Shown here: one piece after another, positions 564 through 62,183 of the stretch
How the letters are laid out: the number at the start of each line of letters is the position of its first letter
How positions within the stretch are numbered: position 1 is the stretch's first letter
Translations under genes and position numbers: made by a program
Notes under the pieces: generated by a model
What the model saw: only the letters and a program-made list of their open reading frames with translations
The model's database searches: none
What the model was told of the DNA's origin: nothing
Assembly: GCA_964036045.1 (NCBI GenBank)
Contig: OZ038378.1
Span: 142,390,933-142,454,932, forward strand
Direction of reading: 5' to 3'
From: Eutreptiella sp. 'Long Island Sound 2002'
Lineage: Eukaryota > Euglenozoa > Euglenophyceae > Eutreptiales > Eutreptiaceae
DNA length: 64,000 nucleotides

Positions 564-567
564 CCTT

Positions 568-5411: not shown

Positions 5412-5595
5412 CGGCCACCTGTAGCAGTGCGCCCCGCCACCGCCCACGCCCGATGGGAGGCTGCCACCCCACCCGTTGCTTGCCTTTGCCCGAGCCTCCG
5501 CGGCTCGGGCAGTGGGGTTCGAACCTGGAGCCAGCGCCGCTGGCATCCAGGGTGCTTCCACTGAAGCACGGGGCACCTCACCAGAAATATGATCC
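5412..5595. repeat. Second copy of the LINE/SINE body plus a minus-strand tRNA-like module
   Basis: 5419-5455 repeats the segment that follows the tRNA-like part of the LINE (CCTGTAGCAGTGC, then C-rich CCACCG and CGCCCGA). At 5505-5590, on the minus strand, an A-box-like GCTTCAGTGGAAGCACC and a B-box GGTTCGAACCCC lie at tRNA spacing, with a paired CTGGATGCCAG arm between. This is SINE-type debris rather than a tRNA gene. Confidence 0.5.
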
Positions 5596-5639
5596 CATAA
5601 GCACACAGCCACATGGCACACGTGCATCTGCATCGCATT

Positions 5640-6144: not shown

Positions 6145-6750
6145 CACGGGACCCAGGGTCCTGAAATCTGCACCCTACAGCCCCTGCTGGTGCACCAGGG
6201 ATTTATTGTTTCAGTGTGATGCTTGCCACGGGACCCAGGGTCCTGAAATCTGCACCCTACAGCCCCTGCTGGTGCACCAGGGATTTATTGTTTTAGTGTG
6301 ATGCTTGCCACGGGACCCAGGGTCCTGAAATCTGCACCCTACAGCCCCTGCTGGTGCACCAGGGATTTATTGTTTTAGTGTGATGCTTGCCACGGGACCC
6401 AGGGTCCTGAAATCTGCACCCTACAGCCCCTGCTGGTGCACCAGGGATTTATTGTTTTAGTGTGATGCTTGCCACGGGACCCAGGGTCCTGAAATCTGCA
6501 CCCTACAGCCCCTGCTGGTGCACCAGGGATTTATTGTTTTAGTGTGATGCTTGCCACGGGACCCAGGGTCCTGAAATCTGCACCCTACAGCCCCTGCTGG
6601 TGCACCAGGGATTTATTGTTTTAGTGTGATGCTTGCCACGGGACCCAGGGTCCTGAAATCTGCACCCTACAGCCCCTGCTGGTGCACCAGGGATTTATTG
6701 TTTTAGTCTGATGCTTGCCACGGGACCCAGGGTCCTGAAATCTGCACCCC
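6145..6750. repeat. 82-bp tandem repeat, about 7.4 copies
   Basis: Units start at 6145, 6227, 6309, 6391, 6473, 6555, 6637 and 6719, exactly 82 bp apart, and are nearly identical (single changes such as TTTCAG for TTTTAG). Each unit contains the palindrome CTGGTGCACCAG and the near-palindrome GGACCCAGGGTCC. The high identity suggests recent amplification. The last copy is cut after about 32 bp. Confidence 0.95.
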
Positions 6751-11125: not shown

Positions 11126-11210
11126 CACGCACACTGGGAAGCCTACGGGCTACACTGCATTACCTGGTTTCAGACTCAGCCAATCCTCTCACTACGTGTC
11201 AGATCACAGA

Positions 11211-11703
11211 GTGAGCATGATGGTGAGGAGGGGAGTGAGCACGATGGTGAGGAGGGGAGTGAGCATGATGGTGGGGAGGGGAGTGACCACGGTGGTGAGG
11301 AGGGGAGTGAGCACGATGGTGAGGAGGGGAGTGAGCACGATGGTGAGGAGGGGAGTGAGCATGATGGTGAGGAGGGGAGTGAGCACGATGGTGAGGAGGG
11401 GAGTGAGCACGATGGTGGGGAGGGGAGTGAGCACAATGGTGAGGAGGGGAGTGAGCATGATGGTGAGGAGGGGAGTGAGCACGATGGTGAGGAGGGGAGT
11501 GAGCACGATGGTGGGGAGGGGAGTGAGCACGATGGTGAGGAGGGGAGTGAGCACGATGGTGAGGAGGGGAGTGAGCACGATGGTGAGGAGGGGAGTGAGC
11601 ACGATGGTGAGGAGGGGAGTGAGCATGATGGTGAGGAGGGGAGTGAGCACGATGGTGAGGAGGGGAGTGAGCACGATGGTGGGGAGGGGAGTGAGCACGA
11701 CGA
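11211..11703 (-). repeat. 24-bp minisatellite, short arm in minus orientation (about 20 copies)
   Basis: The 24-bp unit reads GAGCACGATGGTG then AGGAGGGGAGT on the plus strand and is the reverse complement of the long arm at 11876-16200. Since 24 is a multiple of 3 and the unit lacks stops in most frames, long ORFs arise on both strands. I do not treat these as genes. Confidence 0.95.
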
Positions 11704-11875
11704 TGAACGGGGCAGTAGGGTTCGTTGCGACAAGACGGACGGTCGTCAAGAGGGTTGCGGGGACAGGATTGTGGTACTCTTTGGTGTTTTTTTTTTCGGT
11801 CCAGGCGTCGCCCGCTCACTTCACAGCACTTAAGACAACCCCTCGGGATCAAGGTTCAGAGCCGTCCAGTGCTGC

Positions 11876-14800: not shown

Positions 14801-16200
14801 CACCATCGTGCTCACTCCCCTCCTCACCATCGTGCTCACTCCCCTCCTCACCATCATGCTCACTCCCCTCCTCACCATCGTGCTCACTTCCCTCCTCACC
14901 ATCATGCTCACTCCCCTCCTCACCATCGTGCTCACTCCCCTCCTCACCATCGTGCTCACTCCCCTCCTCACCATCGTGCTCACTCCCCTCCTCACCATCG
15001 TGCTCACTCCCCTCCTCACCATCGTGCTCACACCCCTCCTCACCGTCGTGCTCACTCCCCTCCTCACCATCGTGCTCACTCCCCTCCTCACCATCGTGCT
15101 TACTCCCCTCCTCACCATCGTGCTCACTCCCCTCCTCACCATCGTGCTCACTCCCCTCCTCACCATCATGCTCACTCCCCTCCTCACCATCGTGCTCACT
15201 CCCCTCCTCACCATCATGCTCACTCCCCTCCTCACCATCATGCTCACTCCCCTCCTCACCATCGTGCTCACTCCCCTCCTCACCATCATGCTCACTCCCC
15301 TCCTCACCATCGTGCTCACTCCCCTCCTCACCATCATGCTCACTCCCCTCCTCACCATCGTGCTGACTCCCCTCCTCACCATCGTGCTCACTCCCCTCCT
15401 CACCATCGTGCTCACTCCCCTCCTCACCATCGTGCTCACTCCCCTCCTCACCATCGTGCTTACTCCCCTCCTCACCATCGTGCTCACTCCCCTCCTCACC
15501 ATCGTGCTCACTCCCCTCCTCACCATCGTGCTCACTCCCCTCCTCACCATCATGCTCACTCCCCTCCTCACCATCGTGCTCACTTCCCTCCTCACCATCA
15601 TGCTCACTCCCCTCCTCACCATCGTGCTCACTCCCCTCCTCACCATCGTGCTCACTCCCCTCCTCACCATCGTGCTCACTCCCCTCCTCACCATCGTGCT
15701 CACTCCCCTCCTCACCATCGTGCTCACACCCCTCCTCACCGTCGTGCTCACTCCCCTCCTCACCATCGTGCTCACTCCCCTCCTCACCATCGTGCTTACT
15801 CCCCTCCTCACCATCGTGCTCACTCCCCTCCTCACCATCGTGCTCACTCCCCTCCTCACCATCATGCTCACTCCCCTCCTCACCATCGTGCTCACTCCCC
15901 TCCTCACCATCATGCTCACTCCCCTCCTCACCATCATGCTCACTCCCCTCCTCACCATCGTGCTCACTCCCCTCCTCACCATCATGCTCACTCCCCTCCT
16001 CACCATCGTGCTCACTCCCCTCCTCACCATCATGCTCACTCCCCTCCTCACCATCGTGCTGACTCCCCTCCTCACCATCGTGCTCACTCCCCTCCTCACC
16101 ATCGTGCTCACTCCCCTCCTCACCATCGTGCTCACTCCCCTCCTCACCATCGTGCTTACTCCCCTCCTCACCATCGTGCTCACTCCCCTCCTACCATCAT
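11876..16200 (+). repeat. 24-bp minisatellite, long arm (about 180 copies)
   Basis: About 4.3 kb of the unit CTCACTCCCCTCC then TCACCATCGTG, with point variants. Blocks of variants are themselves duplicated: a block near 12702 recurs 816 bp later (34 units), and the CACACCCC variant at 15025 and the GACTCC variant near 15361 both recur 696 bp later (29 units). The array therefore grew by segmental duplication as well as single-unit slippage. One frame encodes an LTPLLTIV octapeptide repeat over 1,400 residues; this is a result of period and composition, not evidence of a protein. Confidence 0.97.
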
Positions 16201-22106: not shown

Positions 22107-22829
22107 AACACAGCACACACACCAGTAATTTCACACCAGTAATTCTCTGATACCCAGGATGGGGGGAGGGGGGGTTGGAACAGGCGAAATTTGGAATGCC
22201 AAAACCCGGCAGAAACAAAGATGTGCCAAATGATGCCCTGGTATTCGAAGGTCCGCAACTCAGAAGTCTCAGAAGTCATTTCTCGCGCCCTTGGCATGCG
22301 CATTCCCCTGGTGCCCGCGCACCTTCCTCTACGGGGAACCAACCGCCACCATCCAGAGGCCTCCAGGAACTAAGGACAAGCCTCCATCAAACAGCACCGA
22401 ACAACCAAAGGCCCAAAGGAAATGACAACCCCCGTTCATGGCCCGTGCTTGGTCCACAATCGGGGGATTTCGTCCCAGAATTCCTCGTGGTATTGAAGAA
22501 GTGATGGCAAATTTCCTCCACCCCATTCCAAACAAACTTCGCATTTACCTAAATCACCCCCCCCCCCCCCACTGCCAGGACAAGTCATCCGGGGGCTCCG
22601 TTGACACGACCAAAACACGTTCGGGCCCACAGAGGGTCAGAATGAGCAGTGGCGAGAGACCAATAGGCGCCGCAAAAGGCACACAATCAGATACCGAGGC
22701 CTTGTGCCAACCCTTCCCCCCCCCCCGCCCCCGGCAGAGTACGGGATGCCCCTACACGGCGCCTCAGACCCGGATGCACGCCATCGTTTGCAGGGCGCCG
22801 TTGCACAGGAGCCCTGCCAGCCCGCACTC
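21116..22829. other. No recognisable gene; (CA)n microsatellite at 22069-22104
   Basis: C and G runs near 21601-21614, 21790-21800, 22557-22570 and 22715-22725 dominate. Possible 3' splice sites of the downstream MinC-like gene lie at 22737, 22793 and 22808 (CAG ends), so upstream exons of that gene may be here, but I could not identify any. Confidence 0.4.
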
Positions 22830-23672
22830 ATGGCCCTCCTTCCCGTCGGTGGTGAGCCCGTCCCCGCCTCCGAAGCGGACCGCCCGCACTACGTCCGTTC
22901 GGGGCTAGGCCCCGGGGGCACCATCGAGCACCTCCAGGGCAGCGTCGTGGTCAAGGGCGACGTGCCGGAGGGAGCGGTCGTGCGGGCGTCCGGCGACGTG
23001 GTCGTGCTGGGGCAGTTGCGCGGTGAGGCCCACGCCGGCTGCGCGGGCGACCGCGCGGCGGAGGTGGTGGCGCTGGGCCTGGACCCGCGGCGCGTCAGCA
23101 TCGCCGGGGTGCCGGGGCCGCCGGACCGCCGCAGTGCCCCCGGGGCACCGACGTGCGCCCGCCTCGCGGCCGACGGGACGGTCGTGGTGGGCCCCGGCCC
23201 CGGCGGCGGTGCCGCGGGCGCGGGCGTCGGCGCGGCGGCCCCGGGCCGGGCCCGCCTGACCCCCGCCGGGCGCGCGGCGGTCTTCACGGGGGCGTACATC
23301 GCCGCCGTCGGGCTGTGCGCGCTGTTCGCCCCCGCGGCGACGTTCGCGACGCTGTTCCGCGCGGCCCCGCAGCCGCTGGGCTGGGGGCGGGTGCTCGGGG
23401 TGCTGGCCGCCTGCTTCGGGGCGTACTACGCCGGCGCCGCCTACGGGGAGGCCCGCGGGTGGGGGGCGCGCGGGTTCTACTGGTCGACGGTCGCCGGCCG
23501 CCTGTTCTTGGTGGGGGCGTTCGGGTGGCTGGTGGCCACCGGGCGCTTTGCGGAGCCGGCCCTGCTGGTGCTGGCGGCCGCCAACCTTCTCGGGGCCCTG
23601 TCCATGTGCTGGGCCTTGCGCCGGGAGCCGGGCCCGCGGCACGACGGCCGCGTCCGGCTGCGGGGCGGCTGA
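22830..23672 (+). CDS. MinC C-terminal domain fused to a four-helix membrane domain
   Basis: A 280-residue ORF from ATG 22830. Residues 22-93 match the MinC C-terminal beta-helix: VRSG near the start, VVVKGDVPEGAVV, ASGDVVVLGQLRGEAHAG, a GDR, and VSIAG. Residues ~109-122 (ARLAADGTVVV) resemble the strand that closes cyanobacterial MinC. MinC inhibits FtsZ ring assembly and binds MinD through this domain; eukaryotic copies act in plastid or mitochondrial division. After an A/G/P linker come four predicted membrane helices (about 148-170, 184-203, 219-236, 242-263) resembling small four-TM proteins of bacteria and plastids. The MinC N-terminal (FtsZ-facing) domain is absent here. The frame stays open upstream to at least 22704 and acceptor-like CAGs occur, so an upstream exon could supply it and a transit peptide. 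Very high third-position GC fits a host gene. Confidence 0.75.
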   Translation: MALLPVGGEPVPASEADRPHYVRSGLGPGGTIEHLQGSVVVKGDVPEGAVVRASGDVVVLGQLRGEAHAGCAGDRAAEVVALGLDPRRVSIAGVPGPPDRRSAPGAPTCARLAADGTVVVGPGPGGGAAGAGVGAAAPGRARLTPAGRAAVFTGAYIAAVGLCALFAPAATFATLFRAAPQPLGWGRVLGVLAACFGAYYAGAAYGEARGWGARGFYWSTVAGRLFLVGAFGWLVATGRFAEPALLVLAAANLLGALSMCWALRREPGPRHDGRVRLRGG

Positions 23673-47720: not shown

Positions 47721-49068
47721 CCTACTTTTGTTGGTCACTAAATCGCGTAGAGCAAATGGCCCTCCTCCCCGTCTGCGCAGCTCCCGTGTCCACCAAATTA
47801 TCACAGAGTGCTGCTTGGGAGTTTCCACTATCCTTGTTTTTCCATGTTATGACTCTTTACCGTCCCTCTTTTGGTGTCCATTATCCTCGTTGTCCCGTGC
47901 TGCCCCTTGAAACAAACCAATTTGCTCGCCTCCACCTAAGCAAAAGCCATGCACCTACGCCTCCAACACCATTCATCGTGGTCAGTTGTTCCTCAAATCC
48001 TCCTAAGCCCGTTTTTGCTCCGTTACCGCATCCCGTTATGTCTGTTAAAAGTAGCACCAGTCAGCAGCACCTCAAATGCAACGACCACGCACTTGACTCC
48101 ACGGCACCACACAACGGGCGAACTACTAGGCTCTCTTCATGCCTTTGCCAAGGGGAAGGGCCTGACTCTCTCGCCCAAAAACGACACCCACACGGCCTCC
48201 AAGTGCTCCCATTCTTTCAACCTTGGTCCTTCGGATGCTGCTCCGAAACCCCATACCCCACCACACAAAGACTCCCAGTGAACTCATGAAGGCTAACCTT
48301 AGGTGTCACAACCGAAAGGTTGGGAGATCCATTCTCGGATGGGGCATGCCTAGAGGCGGGTAATGCGCAGCTATGCGTCCGTGGAGGCCGTGGAGGCCGC
48401 CTTGCTGCTAGGAGCACCAATGAGTGCGAAAGCGCCAATCCACACACAACACATGGGGCAACATGGCGATGACGCGCTCATTGATCTATTACCATCTAGC
48501 CGGGCCGGTGGAAGCCGCCGAGCGACCACGGCACTGCTAGGATAGTCGTGGGGCAACAAGCTAGGCTCTAACCTAAAGTGCATATTGCGACAGGGCAATA
48601 GAGGGACGCACCCGTACCCGAGGCCTGCACCTTGGGGCACACCAATGGGGAATGTGGCCATAGAGGCGCCCTGCCCGAGTCCTAGCCCCGGACCCAAGCC
48701 GAGCCCCAGGCCCAGCTCAAGCCGGAACCCCAACCCCCGCTCCAGCCTAGGACCTAGCCCCTACGTCAGCCCCAGACCCAGCCCCTACCCCAGTCCAACA
48801 CCCAACCACAACCCCTACGTGAGCCGGGAGATCTAGTAAAGATGGTGAAACACTGCACCACACACATTCACATTGGGAGCTTTGACTAAAATACTTGGGG
48901 CGTCACACACACATTCATATTTCCACTAAACAGGCACAACTGTGTAACTGCTAAGATTTTTTCACATGGACGCGTACGTGTTGAAATCGACTGTTAGCTT
49001 TGCTAATTGGGGTTTTATATGTCTGTCTTATTTGTTCCAGATTGTTTTTGAAATTTTGCTTGGGGAAG
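47721..49068. other. No recognisable gene; low-complexity CCCCAGCCC tract at 48663-48835
   Basis: The tract is a degenerate 6/12-bp repeat reading Ser-Pro/Pro-rich in one frame. A GGGCGTCACACACACA SINE-type tail lies at 48898-48915. The 16-mer GACGCGTACGTGTTGA at 48967 also occurs in the phased array at 52163. Confidence 0.45.
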
Positions 49069-50109
49069 ATGGCGGAATGCATGGAATTTCAGAATTACCT
49101 CCAGGCCGGAGTGCACGACTCTGTGCGAGAGGGAACCCCAGCAGCGTCCTGGGCAAAGGCAAAAATGCGGTCAACCAAGTCCCTTCGCCATCTGGGGGAT
49201 TCGCGTTCGCAATGGCTCCAGACATTTGCCAGTGCCTCAGGATTTGGAGGGACAGAGGAGGCGCTCATTGAGAATCTGATTGGCTACACGTTGACAGAGC
49301 AGGTCCAAATAAACATGACCACGGGGGCCTTTGAGAAAATCAGGGTACAGCCAGACACTGTCAACAAGGCTTCGGACCCTGCCCTGCTGAGCTTGTTAGA
49401 GGGACAGGCTGCCCTGATCAAGTCCCTCACGGAGATGGTCAACGGTCTATCGGAAGCCCCCACGCAGTCGGAAAAGTCTGTGCCACCCCTGTGCCTCAAG
49501 GAGTTACATGAGCTGGCCTTGGTATGGAACCACCCTCAATGGGTCACCAGGGTCTTGTACTACCTCAAATGCGCGATCCTCAAGGAAGCCCTGCCGCTAG
49601 ATGCCATGAGAAAGACCCCCAAGGCGGATGACGAGGCGCAGAAGCCCCTCCTCTTCAACCTCTCGGACGACCACAAGAAAGACACCACGGTATGGACTGA
49701 GGTGGTGGGGACGGGAGATTTGGCAGGCGACGCCCCCATGGATGACAGCTCAGGCGCAACCCCCCCGGTGTTGTCCTTGAACAGCTATGTGGTGCTCATG
49801 GTGGAGTCTTTGTGGCTGCTGGTGTGGTCCTCCGTCCACTGTTACAAGGAGAGATACGAGTCGGACTCAACTTCTTCTCAACACGCATCAGCGGACCCAG
49901 ACTTCACCTCGGGCCCGAGTACAGCGGGGGCACGCCTTAAAAAGGTCATGCGACGTCGTTTCAAAATGGTGGATGGGGTTGAGTACTTCGAGGTCCATAA
50001 AGGAGAGTGGGTGCGATCGGACTCCGCCCCAGTGGGGTCCTGTAAAACGTGCAAAGGTCACGGGCTCATCGAGAGGCACTGGGTATGGAACTGCCCAAGA
50101 CTCGAGTGA
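49069..50109 (+). CDS. YR element 1: gag-like protein
   Basis: 346 residues from ATG 49069 (frame open to 49000) to TGA 50107-50109. The C-terminus carries C325-x2-C328-x8-H337-x4-C342 with an invariant-looking ERHW and CP, preceded by GEW and DS.P. The gag-like ORF of YR element 2 has the same arrangement (C-x2-C-x9-H-x4-C), which is the main evidence for kinship. It resembles a retroviral zinc knuckle with a longer loop and may bind the element RNA. Residues ~240-262 are hydrophobic. The tyrosine recombinase follows in the same frame after the stop. Confidence 0.7.
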   Translation: MAECMEFQNYLQAGVHDSVREGTPAASWAKAKMRSTKSLRHLGDSRSQWLQTFASASGFGGTEEALIENLIGYTLTEQVQINMTTGAFEKIRVQPDTVNKASDPALLSLLEGQAALIKSLTEMVNGLSEAPTQSEKSVPPLCLKELHELALVWNHPQWVTRVLYYLKCAILKEALPLDAMRKTPKADDEAQKPLLFNLSDDHKKDTTVWTEVVGTGDLAGDAPMDDSSGATPPVLSLNSYVVLMVESLWLLVWSSVHCYKERYESDSTSSQHASADPDFTSGPSTAGARLKKVMRRRFKMVDGVEYFEVHKGEWVRSDSAPVGSCKTCKGHGLIERHWVWNCPRLE

Positions 50110-50214
50110 CGGGACTTGGCGGCCCGGCCGGTGGACGCGACATCAATGCTACAACGGCTGAACCGCTTCTGAAAGGGGGGGCCTGTGCTGGCACCCACCC
50201 CTGTGGCTGCCTAG

Positions 50215-51054
50215 GACGTCATCGACTGGCCGGCGGTGGTGGATGCATGGCAAATCTTGGGAGAGACCGACCCCACGGAGTGCCCAGCGGCCTGTCTGGT
50301 TTCAACATGGCAGCCATCGACACCAAAAACCCAGACGAGCCACCTTCGACGATTTGCCCAATTCGGGGGCGCTGTCCAGCCAGGGGACATGCAGGCGTTG
50401 GCGGAACAGGTCCTGCTCTCCATGTTTGCCCAGGGCCAAAAGGCGGCGGCGGCCAGAGGATGCATATACGCCCTCAAGGCAGTGGCTACCTTGGGGTGCA
50501 TCCCCCCCCTGCAATGGGACAGGCTGTGGAGAATTTCAAAGGCGGCAGTGGATTCCCCGGGAAAACGACAGTTCAGAGGGCCCGACCTACTCCAGCTCAT
50601 GACCGAATAATGATCCAGGGTGGGGGAGTGGAAAGTCTATGCCGCAGCGGTCCTATCCTTCGCCACGCTCTGCAGAGTGGGAGAAATATCGTCGCTTCGC
50701 CGCTCGAACATCTCCAAAGTGGGAATCACGTACCAGGGGATCAAACGAGACCATCGCCAGATCACGAGACGACTGGGGCCATACGCGCAGGCATGGGCTA
50801 CGTGGCTCCGCAGGATCGCACCCGGCGAGGCGCCAGCATTGGGACGAGCAGCGGATCTCGAAATGGGTATGGCCAAGCTCTTGCAGGGCACCGACAGAGG
50901 AGAGGCCAGGGGGCATGCCTGGAGACGAGCGGGCGCAACCTACCTCCGGTGGTTGGGACTTCCGTGGAGGCACCTCCTGTGGTGGGGTAGATGGCACAGC
51001 ATCAAAATTGCTCACCTGTACGCGTCTCCCCCCGACGAATTTGAATGTGTGTAG
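50215..51054 (+). pseudogene. YR element 1: tyrosine recombinase with in-frame stops
   Basis: The frame opens after a TAG at 50212 and is broken by TAA-TGA at 50608-50613, then runs to 51054. The N-terminal half corresponds to the core-binding domain. The C-terminal half has the catalytic residues: Arg in LCRVGE, His and Arg in GHAWRR, Trp in GRWHS and Tyr in AHLYAS. It aligns along its length with the recombinase of YR element 2. It would have integrated a circular DNA copy of the retroelement. No reverse transcriptase follows, so this copy is truncated or non-autonomous. All stops could be single C-to-T changes. Confidence 0.8.
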
Positions 51055-51640
51055 ACTACGCGACTGCCTTGGCCAGCCACTGAAGGAATCCGCTGGAGAA
51101 GAACCGATATCAGGGATAACAGCGAGGAGCCACAATATGCCTGAATTGTGTTTTGCTTTGTTCGTAAAACTTAACTCGTACGCGTTGGTTTTCTCTTTGT
51201 TGGAAATTTATCATTTTTCATGGAAAATTCATGTGTGGGGTATCACCTTACCCATCCCAACCCCTATTTGCACTTCCCCTGTACCACTGGGTGCCACTGC
51301 AGACATTGCCGACCGTAGGTCGCCTTCTCCCTCCGCAGAGTGTCCCGAAAACCATACTGAATCACCTCGAAGAGAGGTTGTTAGATCAAGCGCAGGCGCG
51401 AGCGGCGTATACCCCCCTTTTTTGGGGTCATTCGCGTAGCATACCCCAAGGTATGATATTGGATGTCCAAACCCTTGTAAAATCATTATTTTGCCCAATA
51501 AGACCATCCCCCAATGCATTTTTTGATTCTGAGGCCTCTATCCCCTAAAAGTGGATATCACTTTTTTTGGGGGGTGGGGGGGTGGGGGTGGGGATGTGTG
51601 GGGGGGGGGTCAGAAGTTTTCGCTCAACAGGCTTCAAGCA
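51055..51640. other. No gene seen; 3' flank of YR element 1
   Basis: AT-richer DNA with a CGTACGCG at 51177 and G runs at 51570-51610. No reverse transcriptase fragment is present. Confidence 0.4.
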
Positions 51641-51649
51641 ATGGGGAGG

Positions 51650-51738
51650 CTTACGGTTACCGCATCAACGCCGGTCGAATGGTAAAGCGCCCGACGCATG
51701 GTTTAGAGTCGGTGGTTCGAACCCTGGCCTGCTAACTT
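51650..51738 (+). repeat. tRNA-derived SINE-like module
   Basis: TCGAATGGTAAAGCGCC (A-box region), a CCGAC/GTCGG anticodon-like arm and GGTTCGAACCC (B box) lie at tRNA spacing, followed by TGGCC. The anticodon loop is too long for a functional tRNA. Confidence 0.55.
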
Positions 51739-51767
51739 TTGCAGCGGCGGCGCCGCTTCAAATATTT

Positions 51768-51846
51768 ACCGCGCCACGGTTCGAACCGCTTACCCAAAAT
51801 TTTGCGGTCGCATGCATTACCATTCGGCCACTACCGATTCTGGCGA
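51768..51846 (-). repeat. tRNA-derived SINE-like module, minus strand
   Basis: On the minus strand AGTGGCCGAATGGTAATGC resembles the D arm of Ser/Leu-type tRNAs, and GCGGTTCGAACCGTGGCG holds the B box. It faces the plus-strand module at 51650-51738. Confidence 0.55.
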
Positions 51847-52033
51847 CCGGAATGTTCCCGACTGCTGGATAAAGTGTCTGCTACTAACAAAAAACCCAAA
51901 GTGTGTGTTTCTGTCTGACGGACTGCTGGCCTGTCTAACTGACTGATTGGCTGACTGTCAACATCTCTTTGAGGTGTACTGCCGAAGGCAATAGAATTTT
52001 CCCAAAACCTTGCTTTCAGACTGTCCTCTGACA

Positions 52034-52204
52034 CGTACGTATTGGCAGTGCAACACGTACGCGTTGGGTGCGCGGCGCGTACGTGTTGGTGTTTAGACGC
52101 GTACGCGTTAGTAACTTAACACGTACGCGTCAGCTCACCAACGCGTACGTGTTAGATTACCGACGCGTACGTGTTGATCTGTTGGTGCGTACGCAGTTCG
52201 TACG
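52034..52204. repeat. 22-bp-phased CGTACG array, left
   Basis: CGTACG begins at 52034, 52056, 52078, 52100, 52122, 52144, 52166, 52188 and 52199: seven steps of exactly 22 bp and a last one of 11 bp. Core context is mostly ACGCGTACGTGTT or ACACGTACGCGTT, while the rest of each spacer differs. This is the pattern expected for a row of protein-binding sites on one face of the helix. Confidence 0.97.
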
Positions 52205-52224
52205 CACCGCCTACGTGTTACGTG

Positions 52225-52302
52225 GTATGGCAGCTGGTTGGTCTAGTGGTATGTGCATGTTACCTACGTTTCGAAACCGTGGGTTCAAACCCTTGCATAC
52301 AC
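52225..52302 (+). repeat. tRNA-derived SINE-like module
   Basis: GCTGGTTGGTCTAGTGGTAT (Gly/His/Glu-type D-arm region) and GTGGGTTCAAACCCTTGC (B box) lie at tRNA spacing, with a decayed anticodon arm. Confidence 0.55.
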
Positions 52303-52587
52303 ACTGCGTCTGCATCGCAGGAAGGAACCGCAAGACCAGGGGCCCACAACGGACGAGGAGGACTTACCCCATGGGGCGCAACCAACAAATACAGGCGCTG
52401 AAGATCGGCAATCAAATGCGATCACCGGCTGCCCTTCGTTTTTTTAGCAATAAGGCCTACAGAGGGCTGGTCTGTTGTGGTTGTCCCAGCGTGGGCTGGG
52501 CTGGTCTTGTTGGAGCCACCATCTCTGCGCCGGAGGCTGTTCGACGACGAGGTGGCTGGTGCTGGGCTGGAGCTATTGTTGGAGTTG

Positions 52588-52668
52588 GCCAGGCCAAGGT
52601 TCGAACCGAGGAGCCCTGCCGCCGGAGTCTACGCCCATAACCACTCATCCACAGACGAACGTTGCTCA
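52588..52668 (-). repeat. tRNA-derived SINE-like module, minus strand
   Basis: On the minus strand TGGATGAGTGGTTATGGGCG and CTCGGTTCGAACCTTGGC give an A and a B box at the spacing of a tRNA with a variable arm. Most likely a Leu/Ser-like SINE head rather than a functional gene. Confidence 0.55.
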
Positions 52669-52836
52669 GTTTGGTTGCCGTAACCTGAACCACCCCTCCC
52701 TTGCAAAGAGCATCACTGCACCAGAACAGCATGTTGAATGCAAAGTGCATTGAAGACGAAGTATACTTGCCCAAAGCAATTCAATGGAATCCCGAATCAA
52801 ATATCATGCACAACAGCCGAAACACCATACATACTG

Positions 52837-54540
52837 CTAAGGAGCATTGGCCTTCCAATACGTTTTGTGTTCCTTCACGTGTGGTTGTTGTGTCCATGCA
52901 CGCACCCACACATCCCACCCCATCTTTAACAAACCCCAATCCAGATTATCATTTTTTACAACTTCCCTCCACCCTTTCACAAAAACTCGCCTCACCAGTC
53001 TACCTCTCCGTCCCCGTACCCCCCCTTTTACTTTCCTTGCCCCCCCCTTGAAGCTCCTAAACCGAATCTCCGTTTTCAGAGTCTTGTGCCTTTCTTCTGC
53101 CTTGAAGGCAGCAAAGGCACCAAGGGCATGCCACTGCTTAGCAAACCCAAGCATGTGGTCAACCCAAAGGTGCACCCACAGGGTTTGCACCAATTGGCAC
53201 CTTTTGTGATGCACTGCCATTTGCGGTAGCACATTTTTTAGGGTTTCAATTTCTTGGGCTCTTAAGAGACCCTCCTTTTTGGCAATGGTTGCACTTTTGT
53301 GCAAACAGTCCCACCACCAATCAAAATTTTGCGCCCATGTGTGTCCCCCTTCCACGACATGTTGCAAGAGACCTTCATTGTTAAGGGCTACAATGAGGGG
53401 ACCCCAAGCCTTTGTGGAAACAAATAGAATTGCTGCGCTTTGTTCACAACGGAGTGATGGTTTTTCACCCCCCTGCCCTGCGATGTCTTGAGGTGCAACA
53501 CTGTGTGAGGCAACCCTGCAAGGATTTACATGGGTCCACACCCATGTAACAGCGCGCCTCTTCGTGAAGCCATGGTGTTGCACAAGAGCCCTCCAACACC
53601 CATCAAGGCCACTTTGAGTAACACGTGTCACCCCATGCAATGCATAGTGAGGAGGCCTTTACTTGGGCAAAATGCTATGTAGCACCTGCCCGTACCAGGT
53701 CCAGTGTGACACAATGGGTGAAAGTCCCTTCCCAAAGTCGCAACCGCAACGTGTCCTGCATTTTCCACATACCCAACACACTGGGTCTACATTGGTGCAG
53801 TTCCATCTTTTCATGCCTGCCATTGCCTGTTGTGCCACGACATCTGCAACCAGGAAAATTTTTTGGTTTTGCCATGTAACCCCCTTGTACTTCATACTTT
53901 GTGTTTAGGGCCTCTTGCACCTGCTCATCCATTTTGCTAACCCTTGTGAGTGATCGTAGCAGAGCACGTTTTTCAGAGCCGTGTGAAATGCATCAGCTAC
54001 CAAGCGGGTTACCCGATCCAAGCCCTCCAAGCATAAAAAAAAGTGCCGCTTGTTTAGTTGTGTACCATCCACAGAAAGGCGTACCCCGAGGTTCGGGTAC
54101 AAATTTCCCTTACGGGTGGCCATCATGAGTCCCAGTTTCTCTCTCAAATTTGTACCGGCCCCCAGCAATTTGTGGTCCCCGTCCATTGCATTGTAGTCAA
54201 CTACTGGAGGTGCACTAAGTTCGTCCTTCACTCTTTTGACTTCATCCAGGGGGCATTTAATCCGGAATGTGGGGATGGAGTATTGTAGGGCCCGCCAGCT
54301 TTTGCCCTCTTTGCGGCAATCCCACAGGAGGGCCTCTACATGCCACATCTGGTTTTGGGGCATGGGCCCATCCGTCGTTTTCAAAATGAGGGTGCTCACG
54401 TTTTCGCCAGCTTGTACTTGCCAGGTCGGACCAAGAATTTCCGTGACTGCCGTTTGCAGTTCCGCCATCCGTTCCCATATCTTAGTCCTTCCCAGCTGTT
54501 GGTGCTCCTTAAATGGGGGCCTATTCCTTGAGTGGGGCAA
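52837..54540 (-). pseudogene. Broken transposase-like gene between the two CGTACG arrays
   Basis: Three minus-strand open segments (54540-53905, 53895-53659, 53640-52837) share one frame, separated by TAA codons. The first contains LSVDGTQLNKRHFFLCLEGL, an Asp context typical of RNase H-fold transposases. The second has a Cys-rich finger (WNCTN, CWVCGKC, RCGC). The third ends with HLWVDHM and EERHKTLKTE then a basic tail. Between segments 1 and 2 another frame reads MDEQVQEALNTKYEVQGGY, so the break near 53860-53945 may be two indels rather than one stop. The family is not recognised; DNA transposase is inferred from these motifs and from the flanking phased arrays. Confidence 0.5.
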
Positions 54541-54629
54541 AAAAAAACCCTAGGGAAAGACAACAAGGGGGGGGGGGTGCATGGACACAACAAGGTTCGC
54601 ATGTATAGGCACCAGTGCAACACTCAACA

Positions 54630-54868
54630 CGTACGTGTGCACGTACGAGTCGGCACAGCAACGCGTACGCGTTTCATTTTTAATGCGTACGTTCCACAAC
54701 AGCGAATCGTACGTTTCATGAACCCAACGCGTACGTGCCAGAACAGCGAATCGTACGTGTCATGTACCCAGCGCGTACGCGCCAGCACAGCAACACGTAC
54801 GATGCAACACCGTACCGCGTACACACCCCGCACTCCAATGCGTACGCGCCCCTTCCACAACGCGTGCG
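54630..54868. repeat. 22-bp-phased CGTACG array, right
   Basis: CGTACG or a one-base variant begins at 54630, 54642, 54664, 54686, 54708, 54730, 54752, 54774, 54796, 54818 (CGTACA), 54841 and 54863 (CGTGCG). Steps are 12, then 22 eight times, then 23 and 22. The short step is at the inner end, mirroring the left array. Some spacers also show a 44-bp second-order repeat. Confidence 0.96.
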
Positions 54869-54898: not shown

Positions 54899-55486
54899 CT
54901 ACCCAGCACACAGCCTGAACCCAAGACTCCGCAGCAGCTGCAGGTCCTCCCACGACACCTTGCCGCGGCCGACCTGGGTAAAAAACACCAGTGCGTAGCG
55001 TTCACCACGCCACGGGGCTGGCATGTGCAAAGCACCACCGCAAAAAACGACCCCATTCCGGGCATCCAATGCCACCCCATCCTCATCCACCCTATCATGC
55101 CCCTCTGGCCCTGCAACACATGTCATTGTGTAGGGGCGGGTTCCCTTTGTGGGGAACACGAGCCCCGCCTCTTCCACACAAAACTCCCCACCTGAAAAAT
55201 CACCAGCAGTCGCAATGGCACTCAAGGGCAGGTGGTCCTGGTTCTTATGCCCTGGCATTGTGGTTGAAGGGGAAACAACATGGTTCACTTGGATGGCAGT
55301 CCAAGTGAACCACGATGGCAACCTTGCGCGCCCGTAGGCATTGATGGCTGCGCACACCTTTGGGAAGTTGCGTGTTGCAGCAGCCACACGGACATTGCCA
55401 CGCTGCACCACCCCAAACAACGCGGAACGAAATCGTACTCCCCACCTGTCCTTGGAATGCCATGCCCCATCCAACCCCTCCAACAA
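54899..55486 (-). CDS. 2-oxoglutarate/Fe(II) dioxygenase-like protein (TET/JBP-like type)
   Basis: A minus-strand frame of about 195 residues, open to about 55510, with no ATG start, so the 5' end may be spliced or lost. The core reads FTWTAIQVN, PGHKNQDH, AGDFSGGEF, a distal LHMPAPW and GERYALVFFT, ending LLRSLGF. This order (HxD, GG turn, distal His, R of the 2-oxoglutarate site) is that of double-stranded beta-helix dioxygenases, especially the algal/dinoflagellate and TET/JBP-like groups that oxidise thymine or methylcytosine. The first metal motif is H80-x-N82 instead of HxD, with an Asp two residues on, so activity is doubtful. It lies just outside the right phased array and on the same strand as the transposase-like gene. 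TET/JBP genes linked to transposons are known from fungi and algae. Confidence 0.6.
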   Translation of the reverse strand: MLEGLDGAWHSKDRWGVRFRSALFGVVQRGNVRVAAATRNFPKVCAAINAYGRARLPSWFTWTAIQVNHVVSPSTTMPGHKNQDHLPLSAIATAGDFSGGEFCVEEAGLVFPTKGTRPYTMTCVAGPEGHDRVDEDGVALDARNGVVFCGGALHMPAPWRGERYALVFFTQVGRGKVSWEDLQLLRSLGFRLCAG

Positions 55487-55635
55487 AAAACATATGTGAG
55501 GGGAGGGGAGAGCAGCAGCCCCTGGGAGTCAACTACCATTACCACCATCACGGCCTCTGCCACCGCCACTACCACTGCCACTGGGCTGCTCTGCCGCCTT
55601 GCCTAACTGTAGACTCCGCACAGTGTACTTGTCCC

Positions 55636-55941
55636 TCAATGATGTAAGGGCACGCAGAGTCTTCTCCCCTTGTGTCGACTCCTTGCATCGATGAGTGAAT
55701 CCCTCAGGTCCTCAATGTATGTGGTGGCCTGAACAAGGCCATCCCTGATTTCCATTGCTGCCAGTTGCAAAAAATTCTTCTGATCTTCCACATCTTTCCC
55801 CCCCTCCCCAAGGCCAGGGCTGGCTGCGCCTTTCTTGCTTGCCCTCACAGAGGCATCGTGCAGCTTCTCTCTTAAGTCCCTAATCTCATTGTCCTTTTCT
55901 CTTCGCTCATCCTCCCACTTTGCACGCTCTTCCCTCAGCAT
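55636..55941 (-). CDS. Coiled-coil protein, unknown
   Basis: A minus-strand ORF of 101 residues from ATG 55941. The first ~30 residues (EERAKWEDERREKDNEIRDL) and a later segment are strongly charged with heptad-like hydrophobics, so a coiled coil is likely. A G/S-rich linker (SPGLGEGGKD) separates the two. No catalytic motif was seen. It lies upstream of the dioxygenase-like gene on the same strand and may belong to the same element or be an exon of it. Confidence 0.4.
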   Translation of the reverse strand: MLREERAKWEDERREKDNEIRDLREKLHDASVRASKKGAASPGLGEGGKDVEDQKNFLQLAAMEIRDGLVQATTYIEDLRDSLIDARSRHKGRRLCVPLHH

Positions 55942-57734: not shown

Positions 57735-57747
57735 TTTTTGTTAACCC

Positions 57748-58380
57748 ATGGACGGGGTTGAGCAGCGTAATCAGAACCAGCAAGAGTCAGCCGAGGAGCG
57801 GCTGGCGGCGCAAGCCAAAGAAATTCAAGAACTCAGAGAGCAACTCGCCCGAGTGGCAGTGAAGGAGGGGCCCCGCCTGCCCCCACTGAGCGTACCAGAA
57901 GTAAACCGAGCCCTCGAGAAGCCCCAGTTGGCACAGTGGATGAGACTCATGTTGTCCAACATCAAGGCGTACGTGCGCCTCAGAGCTGGTGAGGTGGGGG
58001 AGATCCCCCGACCAAGTGAGTTTGGCGGCCAGGCGACGGAGGCCGCAGTCGACCCAAGAGAGCAGCTGGCGTGGAGGGTCTGGGACTGCGTGTCCCAGTC
58101 CCAGGCGGCGTATGCCCGAAGGTATGCAGGGACGCACGGAAAAACCAGCTCCGAGTCCAACCATTACACCACGCTGGAGGAGGCATGGAAGGAACAAGGA
58201 TCGGCGTTCACGTGGCGGAGCGTGAAATTCAGGGAGGTGGGAGGAGTACTGCAATGGCAGTCGAGGCAGGGCGAGTGGATCCCTGTGGACTCGCCGCCCA
58301 GCGGGGGGTGCCAGAGGTGCGCGCAGCGGGGATCCCCCGACGAACGCCACTGGCACTTTAGATGCCCACACTGGTCCTGA
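57748..58380 (+). CDS. YR element 2: gag-like protein
   Basis: 210 residues from ATG 57748 to TGA 58378-58380. Residues ~15-45 form a charged coiled coil (EERLAAQAKEIQELREQL). The C-terminus has C188-x2-C191-x9-H201-x4-C206 with ERHWHFRCP, matching the finger of the element-1 gag. It would coat and package the element RNA. The recombinase frame follows directly without a frame change, so occasional UGA readthrough would give a gag-YR fusion; that is an inference from frame and from the same layout in element 1. Confidence 0.75.
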   Translation: MDGVEQRNQNQQESAEERLAAQAKEIQELREQLARVAVKEGPRLPPLSVPEVNRALEKPQLAQWMRLMLSNIKAYVRLRAGEVGEIPRPSEFGGQATEAAVDPREQLAWRVWDCVSQSQAAYARRYAGTHGKTSSESNHYTTLEEAWKEQGSAFTWRSVKFREVGGVLQWQSRQGEWIPVDSPPSGGCQRCAQRGSPDERHWHFRCPHWS

Positions 58381-60003
58381 CACGACCGACTGGAGCCCGG
58401 ACAGGCCGCCCCGGGCTCCGGCGTTGCGGACACGGCGGCAGAGCTGCGGGCGCTCGCCCGCCGGTGGGAGACAGCAGCCCGGTCAGACGACCCCTGCTCA
58501 CCAGAGGAAAGTGCCATGCAGTCCTGGAGACCGAGAACCCGCTCGCAGTACGCGTCCCGACTCCGGGCCTTGGCGGCTTACGCGGACCGCACGGGCCCGC
58601 CTGATACAGCCGCAGCACTGGCAGGCCTCCTGGCGGAGCGGGCGCAAGCCGGCGCTACAGCGTCAGCCCTGCGGGGTATTACATCCGCGGTCAGAGCCGT
58701 GGAGGACCTCCAGTGGCTGCCCCCAACAGTCACCACCTTGCACAAGCGGATTGCGGCGGGAGCCGCATCCTCGGGCTCTCAGCCCTATCTGTCCCTAGCA
58801 GGCTTGGTCCAGCTGGTCGAAAAGGCCAGAGACTCTAGACACGGAGCGGTCTTCAGCGCATTGGCCATCATCAGCTGGGTATGCTACCTGCGGGTGGGCG
58901 AAGCAGCTGGCATCAGGGTTACTGACCTGGCTATGCCAGGCTTTGTCCAATTTTGGAACTCCAAGACAGGGGAGGAGGGGTACACCACCCGCCCCCTGTA
59001 CAGGTATGCGGACGGCGTCCGGGCGTGGCTTCATGGCCACATGGTTTCGCTGGGCCGGTCCTCAGACATGCTCGTCTGGCAGTTAGGGGAAGCGGGGTTG
59101 GAGGCAGGCATGGCCGACGCCCTGGCGAGCACCGCCCACTTCCGAGCCAGGTGGCACGCCCTGCGCAGGGGAGGCGCCGCAGCGACTTGGGCCCGTAAGC
59201 CAGACCTCGCCTACTACAAATGGTGGGGCAGATGGCAGAGCACGGCCGTGGCGATGCAATACGGCACCAAATGGTCAGACCCGGGAGTCGTTGCCCCTAC
59301 GGTGCTGCCCGCATGGTCCCGTGGCCTGGGGCCTTTGCCGACTCCGGAACGCGTGGGCGTCCTGGCCCTGTGGGGATCCCCGATGTTCCCCAGTATCGCG
59401 AGCGCCCTCAACACCCCGACCAAGCGCAAGCAGAGACTTCCGCGAGGTCAGAAGCTGGAATCCACTGCGAGCGGCACGCTTGGGGGAGGAGGCGAAGGAG
59501 ACCAAACCGCGGCCGAGCTGGGGGAATCCCCAGGGGACGGCTCTGCTGAGGTGGGCCTGGGGCCTGACACAGCTCCTACCCTCCCTCCACTTCCTCCTTT
59601 GGCCTCTGCCATTGAGCGCGGCGCCGTGTCTCGGGAAGATGCGGGTCAGCTGTGCACGGTGGCGGGGCCTTTGGTGGCCGTGGGGGGGGGGGCGTGCGGG
59701 CCGGGAACGGCAGCCGGGCCCATCAATGTCGATTCCGACGTGGACACCGACGACAACAGCGAGGATTCCGGAAGCGAGCCCTCTGGCGAATTCGCAATCG
59801 GCAGCGCCAGGGGCTCCCCCGGGCGTCGACAGGCCGGAATTGCCAGGTTCGTTGGACGGGAGCGTAAGCCGTGGTCCTCCAGGGCAGCCGTTGGCCCAGT
59901 CAGAGGAGGACCCGCAGCGGGCTCGAAAGCTGGAGTGGTGGGCCGTGTCTACCGCACATACGCGGGGCCGCGTCGCGCTAAGGTGGTCCTGGATGGTACG
60001 TAG
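58381..60003 (+). CDS. YR element 2: tyrosine recombinase
   Basis: From ATG 58516 the protein has 495 residues; the same frame is open back to the gag stop at 58380. The catalytic set is Arg126 (YLRVGEA), His214-x-x-Arg217 (HALRR), Trp240 (GRWQS) and Tyr249 (AMQYG), numbered from 58516. Residues ~1-85 look like the helical core-binding domain. The ~240 residues after the tyrosine are a low-complexity G/P/S/E-rich tail with an acidic patch (DSDVDTDDNSEDSGSE). Part of the tail DNA (59580-59692) is repeated near the element's 3' end. The enzyme would join and integrate the circular cDNA. It ends with TAG 60001-60003. Confidence 0.88.
   Translation, partial: HDRLEPGQAAPGSGVADTAAELRALARRWETAARSDDPCSPEESAMQSWRPRTRSQYASRLRALAAYADRTGPPDTAAALAGLLAERAQAGATASALRGITSAVRAVEDLQWLPPTVTTLHKRIAAGAASSGSQPYLSLAGLVQLVEKARDSRHGAVFSALAIISWVCYLRVGEAAGIRVTDLAMPGFVQFWNSKTGEEGYTTRPLYRYADGVRAWLHGHMVSLGRSSDMLVWQLGEAGLEAGMADALASTAHFRARWHALRRGGAAATWARKPDLAYYKWWGRWQSTAVAMQYGTKWSDPGVVAPTVLPAWSRGLGPLPTPERVGVLALWGSPMFPSIASALNTPTKRKQRLPRGQKLESTASGTLGGGGEGDQTAAELGESPGDGSAEVGLGPDTAPTLPPLPPLASAIERGAVSREDAGQLCTVAGPLVAVGGGACGPGTAAGPINVDSDVDTDDNSEDSGSEPSGEFAIGSARGSPGRRQAGIARFVGRERKPWSSRAAVGPVRGGPAAGSKAGVVGRVYRTYAGPRRAKVVLDGT
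59580..59692 (+). repeat. Internal repeat B, copy in the recombinase tail
   Basis: CCTCCCTCCACTTC through GAGCGCGGCGCCGTGTCTCG to a G run; about 90% identical to 63495-63613. It is the only non-terminal direct repeat of the element. Confidence 0.9.
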
Positions 60004-60253
60004 GCCGTGCGATCCCGAGCCCCCGCACGCCGTCAAGCTGGGAGACCTCGTTTGGCCCAGCAGGTCGGAACGCCGCAGCCCAAGCGCATCAAGCTCGGGC
60101 AGGGCGGGCGTGTCCGGACGCCGGAGGCGCAAGGCCCGGTGGAGGGTGCCTTCGTGGCTGCAGCTGAGCGTCTCAAGGCCAAGGCTTGGGGGAGGGCGGG
60201 CCTAGTGGCGTCGCCCCCCTCCCCTCTGTAAGGGTCCCGACAGGGGTGGGAGG

Positions 60254-60770
60254 GTGCAGGAACAGCCCCCCCTCTTCCTGGAGTTCATGCAGACGCTCAC
60301 CCCCCATTTTCACTGGATAGCCGAGCGGGAACGTTGTGGCTTGTGGATGGTTGCGAAGAGGGTGGATTTGTGGTTGAATAGAGTATTCGATACAGCCGAG
60401 GATTTCCGCTTGCAAGGGGCTTTACCCGCTATCCTGGGCGCCTTGCGCAAGCTCCACCCGGACGCCTGGGAGGCATGCCTCCATATCAACACCTCCCCCA
60501 TTCCGCGGTTCATGGGGGGGGTGGAGGACGCCATTTTGGACCGGGGATTGGGACCGGTAGGCTCCCACCAGCTACCGGACGAACTGTCGGATGCTGTCGT
60601 ACCGCCCTTCTACCATGGAGGGCTCCAGGATTTTGACGTCGAGCGAGAGTGGCAGGACGGGGATAGGGTGGTCCGAGGGGCAACCAGATGGGTGTCGCAG
60701 CAGGTCCAGAGGATAGTGCAGGCGTTGAGGGGGGCGGGGGTCTACGAGGAGCCGGCCGACCCCCCCCCCC
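60254..60770 (+). CDS. YR element 2: N-terminal part of the RT polyprotein
   Basis: An open frame from GTG 60254 (first ATG 60287) into a run of 11 C at 60760-60770. It encodes about 170 residues (HFHWIAERERCGLW near the start, VVRGATRWVSQQVQRIVQAL near the end) that precede the RT fingers in related elements as a linker region. The RT itself is in the +1 frame from the C run onward. Removing one C would fuse them. The run is either a decay/sequencing indel or a +1 frameshift site. Confidence 0.6.
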
Positions 60771-62183
60771 TCGCCCACGTGTTACCCCTTCGTCATCCCC
60801 AAGTCATCCGAGAAGGTCTCCTTGATCTTGAGTTGCGTCAAGATCAACAAGAGTGACGGGGGCAAGCCCCCCACTTTTAGATTGGATTCCTGGGAGGATT
60901 TGGCTAGGTCCTTGTCGGCGTTCCCGCCTGATGTGGACCTCTACGGCCTCCACATTGACCTCAAAAATGCGTTCTGGAGCTTTTGCTTGCCCCAGGGTGC
61001 GCGCCAGGTTTTTCGCTTCCGGCCCGCCCCCGGGGCTCCGCCTGTGGCGCTGTCGCGCCTACCGTTTGGCTGGAAATACAGCCCCTATCTGTGCCAAACG
61101 AGTTTGGCACGCATTCTCCAGGGGGTACTGCCCCCCGAGATACTCCTTGTGCACTACCTCGATGACTTTTTGCTCGTCTTCACTGATAGGGAGGTGCTCA
61201 GGGAGGCGGGGCGAGTGGCAGTGCGTGCCCTGATCGAGGCTGGTTTCCTCATAAGTCCTAAGACTGTCCTGGACCCGGTGCCTGTGGCGTCGTTCCTGGG
61301 GAAGGAACTCGACTTGCAGGCCAGACGGATCAGGAGCCATGAACAAGCACTGCTCCAGTTGTGGGCGGGATGGCTGAGGCTGGCGGTTGGCGCAGGCAAC
61401 GACCGGCACCTCCAAAGCTTCCTGGGTTTGCTGAATTGGCATGTGCGTCCGAGGGGATTGGGTTGCCCTTTCGCGGCGGGCGCCTACTGCTGGTTGCGCT
61501 GGGGTAGGACAGTGGGGGGGGTCAAGCAGCCGGCCCAGGGCTTCCCCCTGAAAATGCTGGGCAGCCTCGCAACATTGGTGGCGTTGGCGGCCGAGCCCTG
61601 GCAGGCGCCGGGCGGGGAGGCCTGGCGGCAATTGAGGACCCTCAAGTTTGGGACCGAGGATAGGCTTTCGCGATCATCTGTGTGGTGCGGGGGCGTCGTC
61701 ATCTGTGTCGATGGAGCGCGCGATGCGGGGTGCTGGAGGGTTGGGGCGCTCGTGCCGGGAGTGGGTGTGCGTACGCATGTGACACCTCCTGCCCGCTTCG
61801 CCAGCCAGCAAACCACGGAACTGAGGGGAGTGGCGTGGGCTGTCAGGTTTGCAGTCAGGACGGGACACCGATCTGTTACGGTCTGTAGCGACAGTGAGGC
61901 GGCCATTGCTCAGGTCCTCAGGCTGCGCGCGACTAGCCACCTGACCCACCACCAAACAGTCCTTCGGTCGTTGGCTAGAATCCTGTGGGTATCGGGGATC
62001 GTGCTCCGCCTCGTGTGGGTGCCCTCGGCGCTTCAGCCGGGAGACCCTATGTCCAGGGTGACGTCAGTGTTCGGAGGCTCGCAGGCCAGGGCGGAAGTCG
62101 AGGCTTGGTGCACGTGGGATGCATTGCTGGAGAATCTGGGCGAGGCTCGGGTGAGGGGGGTGGTGTGTCTCCGGGGATGCTAG
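60771..62183 (+). CDS. YR element 2: reverse transcriptase-RNase H
   Basis: The frame after the C run reads CYPFVIPKSSEKVSL, the first RT block. Then come LHIDLKNAFWSF (first catalytic Asp), LPFGWKYSPYLC and VHYLDDFLLV (YLDD box, about 61150-61180), FLGKEL, and a tether. RNase H follows with VDGARDAG, QTTELRGV, CSDSEAAI and PGDPMSR as its four acidic blocks. It stops at TAG 62181-62183. The YLDD form and this RNase H type are usual for DIRS-like, Ngaro and VIPER elements and differ from the LINE RT in this window (YADD). It copies the element RNA into DNA and degrades the RNA strand. Confidence 0.92.
   Translation, partial: SPTCYPFVIPKSSEKVSLILSCVKINKSDGGKPPTFRLDSWEDLARSLSAFPPDVDLYGLHIDLKNAFWSFCLPQGARQVFRFRPAPGAPPVALSRLPFGWKYSPYLCQTSLARILQGVLPPEILLVHYLDDFLLVFTDREVLREAGRVAVRALIEAGFLISPKTVLDPVPVASFLGKELDLQARRIRSHEQALLQLWAGWLRLAVGAGNDRHLQSFLGLLNWHVRPRGLGCPFAAGAYCWLRWGRTVGGVKQPAQGFPLKMLGSLATLVALAAEPWQAPGGEAWRQLRTLKFGTEDRLSRSSVWCGGVVICVDGARDAGCWRVGALVPGVGVRTHVTPPARFASQQTTELRGVAWAVRFAVRTGHRSVTVCSDSEAAIAQVLRLRATSHLTHHQTVLRSLARILWVSGIVLRLVWVPSALQPGDPMSRVTSVFGGSQARAEVEAWCTWDALLENLGEARVRGVVCLRGC

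Follow-up and report, generated by a model that had tools for sequence, protein, structure and literature searches.

Phased CGTACG palindrome arrays near the ends and in the internal non-coding intervals of a family of DNA transposons in Eutreptiella

Arrays of short motifs are known from transposons in two settings, either at the element ends, as in CACTA and hAT elements, or throughout the non-coding DNA, as in the VANDAL/VANC system, VANDALs being Mutator-like elements. In En/Spm, a protein encoded by the element binds the subterminal arrays of a short motif. Transib elements possess CACWRTG-like tips and generate a 5-bp duplication, and in RAG1 the pairs C730-H937, H937-H942 and H942-E962 are separated by 207, 5 and 20 residues, respectively. 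The CACTA/Mirage/Chapaev/Transib/Plavaka (CMCT) clade is characterized, in the available part of its description, by the residue order D-D-C(2)C-H(4)H-E and by target-site duplications of 2 to 5 bp (PMC12730594). The same partial account gives PlavakaA elements of fungi 5'-TGT..ACA-3' termini and 2-bp target duplications, and makes no mention of subterminal arrays in the sections at hand, the word 'subterminal' being absent from the whole paper (PMC12730594). The VANDAL/VANC motif YAGTATTAY is described in excerpts of two reports as directional rather than palindromic, in arrays that turn over fast (PMC5735166, PMC10398659).

The locus considered here lies in the genome of Eutreptiella sp. 'Long Island Sound 2002', and the window is the whole 64-kb stretch of DNA that was analysed. 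CGTACG is found 27 times in this window, compared with 5.28 +/- 2.07 times in shuffles, and triple cores at exact 22-bp steps number 12, compared with none in 100 shuffles. These counts confirm the exact 22-bp period noticed in an earlier sequence-only reading. The left array (52034..52215) contains nine exact cores, which advance from 52034 by seven steps of 22 bp to 52188 and then by 11 bp to 52199, as had been read; a site with one mismatch at 52210 (CCTACG) is still on the 22-bp lattice. The right array (54630..54868) contains ten exact cores and starts at 54630 with a step of 12 bp, followed by eight steps of 22 bp (the last ending at 54818, CGTACA), one of 23 bp to 54841 and one of 22 bp to 54863 (CGTGCG), so that the steps first proposed for it stand if the one-mismatch sites 54818 and 54863 are counted. 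The array sites have in common a palindrome of about 16 bp, roughly CAACRCGTACGYGTTG, and the spacers are mostly unrelated and carry little information. The observation that core and spacing are kept and spacers are not is thus borne out, and the view that the arrays are something other than a plain tandem repeat of recent origin is supported. When the window was scanned with a site matrix, the only comparable sites outside the arrays were those at 48973 and 51177, both part of the same element as the arrays.

The element that carries these arrays is a member of a family of DNA transposons that is common in this genome. The genome searched comprises 2.28 Gb in 2,205 contigs; 74 genomic matches to the intact 594-aa transposase P0002 were scored, of 6,165 candidates, and 40 of the 74 are stop-free within the matched stretch. 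The 30 best-scoring copies, a choice that favours young ones, were fetched and represent 27 distinct insertions; a common tip sequence ends all 30, in 27 different flanks. Exact matches to the 18-bp terminus number 341 in the genome, and those to its reversed control 0. One full copy (C9:38766655-38774221, referred to as the C9 copy) measures 7,567 bp and has 18-bp inverted termini, with the left tip TGTAACTGCTAAGATCTG opposite the right tip ...CAGATCTTAGCAGTTACA, a 2-bp target duplication, three coding regions that are all on one strand, and four CGTACG arrays. Of 20 places where a left tip was predicted, 7 yielded one, always together with a 2-bp duplication (7/7; 5 distinct flanks), and tip and duplication are likewise present in the C9 copy, in copy L044 and in the small derivative L015. 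In total, the 2-bp duplication accompanies 8/8 distinct insertions with both tips located. In the other 13 of the 20 predicted places the left end did not turn up at the expected distance, so that the upstream length differs among copies; tip pairs are about 2.2 to 7.7 kb apart among the matches listed. Deletion derivatives also exist in the family, L015 being one of 612 bp in which both tips and the end-proximal sites are kept and the genes are gone. That the arrays are part of a transposon, whose ends and target-site duplications the sequence-only reading had proposed to look for, is therefore established by the common 18-bp tips, the 2-bp duplications and the different flanks. Arrays without the gene, named in advance as an observation that would speak against such an element, do occur in L015, yet they come with the same tips and fit a transposon; the other adverse outcome, loss of the 22-bp spacing in other copies, is contradicted by all 30 best-scoring copies.

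The copy in the window is an older, broken one, with three inserts and its other end missing. It covers about element positions 3569-7567 of the C9 copy, at 86-93% identity in pieces. Its tip (48943..48988, minus strand; element 7522-7567; 93.5% over 46 bp by blastn of the C9 copy) comprises the terminal inverted repeat found by a TIR scan (48943-48960, minus strand, TGTAACTGCTAAGATTTT) and the outermost CGTACG site, at 48973; the additional match that had been seen near 48967 is this terminal site of the element itself. A foreign insert on the plus strand (48989..51165), recognized like the two others as a stretch that interrupts the C9 alignment, splits this site from the one at 51177, the two being 22 bp apart in other copies. 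It contains a gag-like ORF (49000-50109, plus strand, from the ORF list) and a degenerate tyrosine-recombinase-like ORF (50620-51054, plus strand; Phage_integrase at E=0.054 only). The second terminal site lies within a subterminal stretch (51166..51362, minus strand; element 7330-7526; 91.9% identical to the C9 copy), next to which is a second insert of about 632 bp (51363..51994). The left array follows and aligns to the element array at 7124-7267 (in A4) of the C9 copy. A third insert, of about 245 bp, occupies 52449..52693; both this and the second insert include tRNA-like sequence by eye, and ARAGORN predicted no tRNA in the window. The transposase-like gene claimed on the minus strand between the arrays is indeed there (52840..54615), 80% identical to P0002 over its length, as a pseudogene interrupted by a TAG and two TAA codons and by a pair of compensating frameshifts; with three stops and two frameshifts, the window transposase is dead. 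Read-through or an alternative genetic code for the in-frame TAA was rejected, since sense codons occupy these positions in relatives and frameshifts are present in the window copy as well. Beyond the right array (A3), the minus strand carries the 3' part of coding region B (54902..55528), with 20 homologous proteins, and a part of B that is charged and coiled-coil-like by eye (55636..55941, from ORFs and the element alignment). The alignment to the element stops at 55941, and two arrays and the other tip are absent from the window.

Comparison with the C9 copy overturns the proposal that the two arrays are the mirrored ends of an element. The left array accompanies one tip as its subterminal array, and that tip itself is found 3.1 kb to the left of it, at 48943. 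The right array occupies an internal position, with the transposase on one side and region B on the other. Among the 20 relatives of region B, three are frame-shifted models that run through the right array into the region upstream of the transposase, and these gave the first sign that this array is internal. Nor is the mirror-image layout upheld as a rule: within the window, the flank orientation of the right array against a model of the left array was not significant (48/512 sign flips), and in other copies the array upstream of the transposase both begins and ends with short steps. The single short inner steps in the window are the remnant of an array that in other copies has short steps at either end. 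The DNA helix has 10.5 bp per turn, and at this pitch a 22-bp step drifts by about 34 degrees; the suggested binding on one DNA face is therefore approximate only, and a slowly winding filament would fit better than strictly one face.

In the C9 copy, the arrays lie at 41-233 (A1), 2443-2657 (A2), 4668-4873 (A3) and 7124-7272 (A4), with a terminal pair of sites at 7510 and 7532. A1 and A4 are subterminal, near the tips, and A2 and A3 are between coding regions. The distance from tip to outermost site is 31 bp on the right and 41 bp on the left, and at 53 bp a site begins on either side. All four arrays are present in 6/6 full-length copies checked. Furthermore, both arrays that flank the transposase are found in each of the 30 best-scoring copies, at nearly the same offsets, on the 22-bp lattice and with 11/12-bp end steps; each of these copies has at least 9 exact cores upstream of the transposase and at least 7 downstream. 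The upstream array (A3), which has up to 12 cores and adjoins the transposase reading frame, shows the exact pattern 12, 11, 22 x7, 11, 12 in 20/30, the downstream array (A4) shows the full pattern 11, 22 x6 in 26/30, and the terminal pair of sites, 22 bp apart near the tip, is found in 28/30. Departures from these patterns in the 30 copies are mostly lost cores on the lattice; there is a 1-bp shift in each of L034 and L038, and L032 has two extra 22-bp units. The layout of A1 is the same in seven left-tip copies, six of which have all seven sites (L043 lacks one). A2 is present in 5/5 further copies, with 10 cores at 33, 22 x8 in four of them. L044 has kept tips and 2-bp duplication and lacks A1. 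Elsewhere in the genome, CGTACG arrays also occur on an 11-bp step, and the 11-bp family in L070 has neither transposase nor tips in common with the element. As a separate observation, 8 viral contigs carry three cores at 22 bp; a longer lattice, a run of 5, is found only in L007, a viral contig in which no encoded relative was seen.

In the C9 copy, the provisional model of coding region A spans about 522-2430, that of region B spans 2693-3958 and 3962-4591, and the transposase ORF runs from 4835 to 6661. A splice linking A to B, which would put array A2 inside an intron, was considered; with the donor and acceptor tried, the C9 copy gives no in-frame junction. An H-x-D ... H ... R pattern, as seen in Fe(II)/2-oxoglutarate oxygenases, was recognized by eye in region A of the C9 copy and of L013 and in region B of most aligned relatives; in region B of the window copy its first H is N. 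Searches of Pfam, PHROGs, NCBIfam, PDB sequences and phage records returned no dioxygenase family match for A or B, and no relatives of B were found in viral contigs. The dN/dS of region B is 0.26 between window and C9 copy, a mark of purifying selection, and is about 0.2-0.26 for the transposase C-terminus and region B between the window and C9 lineages.

Besides P0002, the window gene has four further close relatives and a distant one, P0006 (35% identical). The motif residues of P0002 are D184, D260, C282/C285, H484/H489 and E509, the same motif order is found in P0006, and the patterns are matched in 27/30 genomic copies; the catalytic residues were picked by motif only. By this motif, D-D-C(2)C-H(4)H-E, we infer a transposase of the CACTA/Plavaka/Transib/RAG1 (CMCT) clade, and the 2-bp duplication in 8/8 distinct insertions is within the range given for that clade. 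Homology to the transposases of its members was not detectable in Pfam or among PDB sequences: no Pfam family matched P0001 or P0002 at E<=10, P0006 had one weak, unrelated Pfam match only, and the PDB sequence search returned no relevant chain and no RAG1 or Transib match. Phage DNA matches were short and by chance, searches of viral contigs gave no transposase relatives, and a search of the genome contigs database gave none of P0006.

Each of the described systems resembles the element in part. The tips TGTAACTGC...GCAGTTACA read TGT..ACA and are flanked by 2-bp duplications, as described for PlavakaA. However, the transposase lacks any Pfam profile match at E<=10, and the element resides in another kind of host and has two further coding regions and four phased palindrome arrays; we do not file it as Plavaka, the likeness being one of tips and duplications by published description. 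With CACTA/En-Spm elements it has in common the broad transposase clade, judged by motif, and subterminal arrays of a short motif. It differs from them in its tips, which are TGTAAC... (341 exact ends in the genome) and not CACTA/CACTG, in having arrays also between coding regions, and in its palindromic core on a strict 11/22-bp lattice. The spacings C285-H484 (199), H484-H489 (5) and H489-E509 (20) in P0002 are close to those of RAG1, whereas the tips bear no CACWRTG-like sequence and the duplication comprises 2 bp instead of the 5 bp of Transib. The multi-gene VANDALs likewise carry dense arrays of one short motif in non-coding intervals, as do all six full-length copies of the present element, but the VANDAL motif is directional and its arrays change fast, whereas the motif described here is palindromic and on a fixed lattice. 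Our literature search did not find the four-array layout, which is not proof that it is unpublished.

Conservation of the cores was assessed at two depths. Between the window and C9 copies, cores differ at 3/114 positions and other array positions at 31/241 (p=0.0016), cores being defined as exact sites in C9, which biases somewhat toward this result. Among the young copies (27 insertions), copy-weighted rates are 14/3240 for cores and 146/10723 for the rest (p=2.8e-6), a comparison that counts shared variants many times; by variable columns (17/222 vs 47/542, p=0.77) the difference is gone. A1 alone (1/252 vs 5/1151) and A2 alone (3/360 vs 9/1170) show no core contrast. In the three frame-shifted relatives of region B, 15/19 exact sites are core-compatible, compared with 422/591 spacer hexamers, so these read-through tails show a conserved layout and, in that test, no special constraint on the cores. 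Core constraint is supported by the older comparison and by the uniformity of the cores within the element, and not by young polymorphism.

Taken as a whole, the layout is explained by what would be a CMCT-type DNA transposon that differs from known ones by its phased arrays. We consider it likely that this family has a DDE transposase of the CMCT kind and that its four arrays serve as lattices for an element-encoded protein. The arrays probably act as strips on which a protein encoded by the element docks: each would offer many sites to a putative protein that attaches to the palindrome as a dimer and forms oligomers on the lattice. Bound at the tips, the protein might help bring the two ends together for transposition; inside the element, it might control expression of the element's genes or keep the non-coding DNA free of silencing marks. 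Candidate binders are the transposase and the charged, coiled-coil-like product of region B. As the arrays occupy two kinds of position, the tips and the intervals between coding regions, it seems more likely that they serve end synapsis together with expression or anti-silencing than that they serve either alone. This dual-use lattice is put forward as a proposal and not as a result.

According to a narrower explanation, the arrays would be only binding sites for the transposase or a TnpA-like protein, acting in synapsis, and the internal ones would be left over from nested or duplicated ends. Subterminal repeats are a known feature of CACTA elements, and here too two arrays are subterminal, a site is found exactly 53 bp from both tips, the outermost sites are 31 bp and 41 bp from the tips, and the 612-bp L015 retains tips and end-proximal sites without genes. 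We nevertheless regard this explanation as doubtful, as A2 and A3 equal the terminal arrays in richness and regularity, no internal tip sequence was seen in either, and A3 is just upstream of the transposase reading frame.

An anti-silencing function alone, in which a protein from B or A would coat VANC-like target arrays and remove or block silencing marks, appears to us similarly unlikely. It draws on the two CpG in the core, on the H-x-D ... H ... R pattern in A and B, of a kind seen in oxygenases, and on the purifying selection on B (dN/dS 0.26). In addition, every non-coding interval has an array, like the VANC21 motifs in the part of that report at hand (PMC5735166), and fungal transposons that carry TET/JBP dioxygenases are described in the portion available of another (PMC12730594). 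However, none of the profile sources (Pfam, PHROGs, NCBIfam, PDB, phage records) backs the dioxygenase reading, VANC motifs are single-orientation, fast-changing tandem repeats unlike a fixed palindromic lattice, and the CpG observed/expected ratio is 0.77 in the element and 0.70 in the window, a depletion so mild that heavy methylation is not evident. A bolder version, which we hold to be improbable, would make the element a self-contained de-silencing machine, with two oxygenase-like proteins, encoded by the element and directed to or retained on a strict lattice of CpG-bearing palindromes, which would extend along all non-coding intervals and double as synaptic scaffold at the tips; if true, one protein-DNA filament would couple escape from silencing to transposition. 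Finally, a host satellite or regulatory repeat into which a transposase gene inserted might have been suspected from the motif common to both window arrays and from the 11-bp-step arrays elsewhere, but its chance is negligible, being refuted by common tips and target duplications, with fixed array offsets and one tip sequence in 30/30 copies at 27 different flanks and an 11-bp family in L070 that is devoid of the transposase and the tips.

Under the preferred reading of the four arrays as lattices for an element protein, one palindrome on one lattice would be used both at the ends and through the non-coding DNA of a single element, in many young, apparently intact copies. The family would therefore be a good natural system for asking whether one structure can act both as transposition scaffold and as anti-silencing target, and how strict the conservation of helical spacing is. 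It would also extend Plavaka-like tips, together with the CMCT-type signature, to a divergent family beyond the fungal cases covered in the available part of the published account (PMC12730594).

The transposon copy in the window is split by an insert at 48985-51165, which carries a gag-like ORF, whose C-terminal part shows a CxxC..HW..CP pattern, and after it a tyrosine-recombinase-like ORF that is degenerate. The insertion point lies exactly between the two terminal palindromes of the transposon, and no reverse transcriptase was seen in the insert. Further along the window, at 57745-62180, a gag-like ORF and a tyrosine-recombinase-like ORF stand with a reverse transcriptase (RVT_1, E=4e-13) and its RNase H in a DIRS-like arrangement, and the C-terminus of this gag is similar to the one encoded by the 49-50 kb insert. 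ORFs at 550-5187 resemble, by eye, a LINE-type endonuclease and reverse transcriptase; a piece of this stretch (~2399-3676) turns up again at 95.9% in L015, the locus of the 612-bp deletion-type derivative of the transposon. Around the transposase frame, a 23-bp inverted repeat (52885-52907 and 54571-54593; 91% complementary) has one arm in the 3' end of the reading frame and the other in the stretch directly upstream of it.

Elsewhere in the window, a 24-bp minisatellite occupies 11209-16198 in two blocks of 20.5 and 180 copies (95% matches), across which several reading frames are open. An intron-less ORF at 22605-23669 encodes the C-terminal domain of MinC (PF03775, E=1e-17) and, after it, ends in a hydrophobic stretch. 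The 2.28-Gb genome around this ORF looks eukaryotic, and the ORF could be a hint of an algal host.

Arrays of CGTACG also occur outside the transposon. A second kind, with an 11-bp step (CGTACGAATTT/AAATT), is present in three blocks at C1:18344600-18349000 of the same genome (G000), and no relation was found between this array and either the transposase or the transposon tips. On a viral contig (L007, 5751-5856), five CGTACG cores follow one another at exact 22-bp steps (CGTACGTAC within an A/T-rich spacer), with unrelated ORFs on either side.

Several copies of the transposon, at C1:3.51 and 3.56 Mb (L013 and L014) and at C18:33.96-34.06 Mb (L021, L031 and L036), lie within an inverted duplication and within a repeated segment whose identical flanks are ~48.6 kb apart. 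In another copy, of 3,821 bp (L044, G000:C2:38832518-38836338), the transposase frame is open and the two tips are present with a 2-bp duplication, and the left subterminal array A1 and the regions up to element position ~3,787 are missing. This copy represents a natural deletion that could serve to test the need for array A1.
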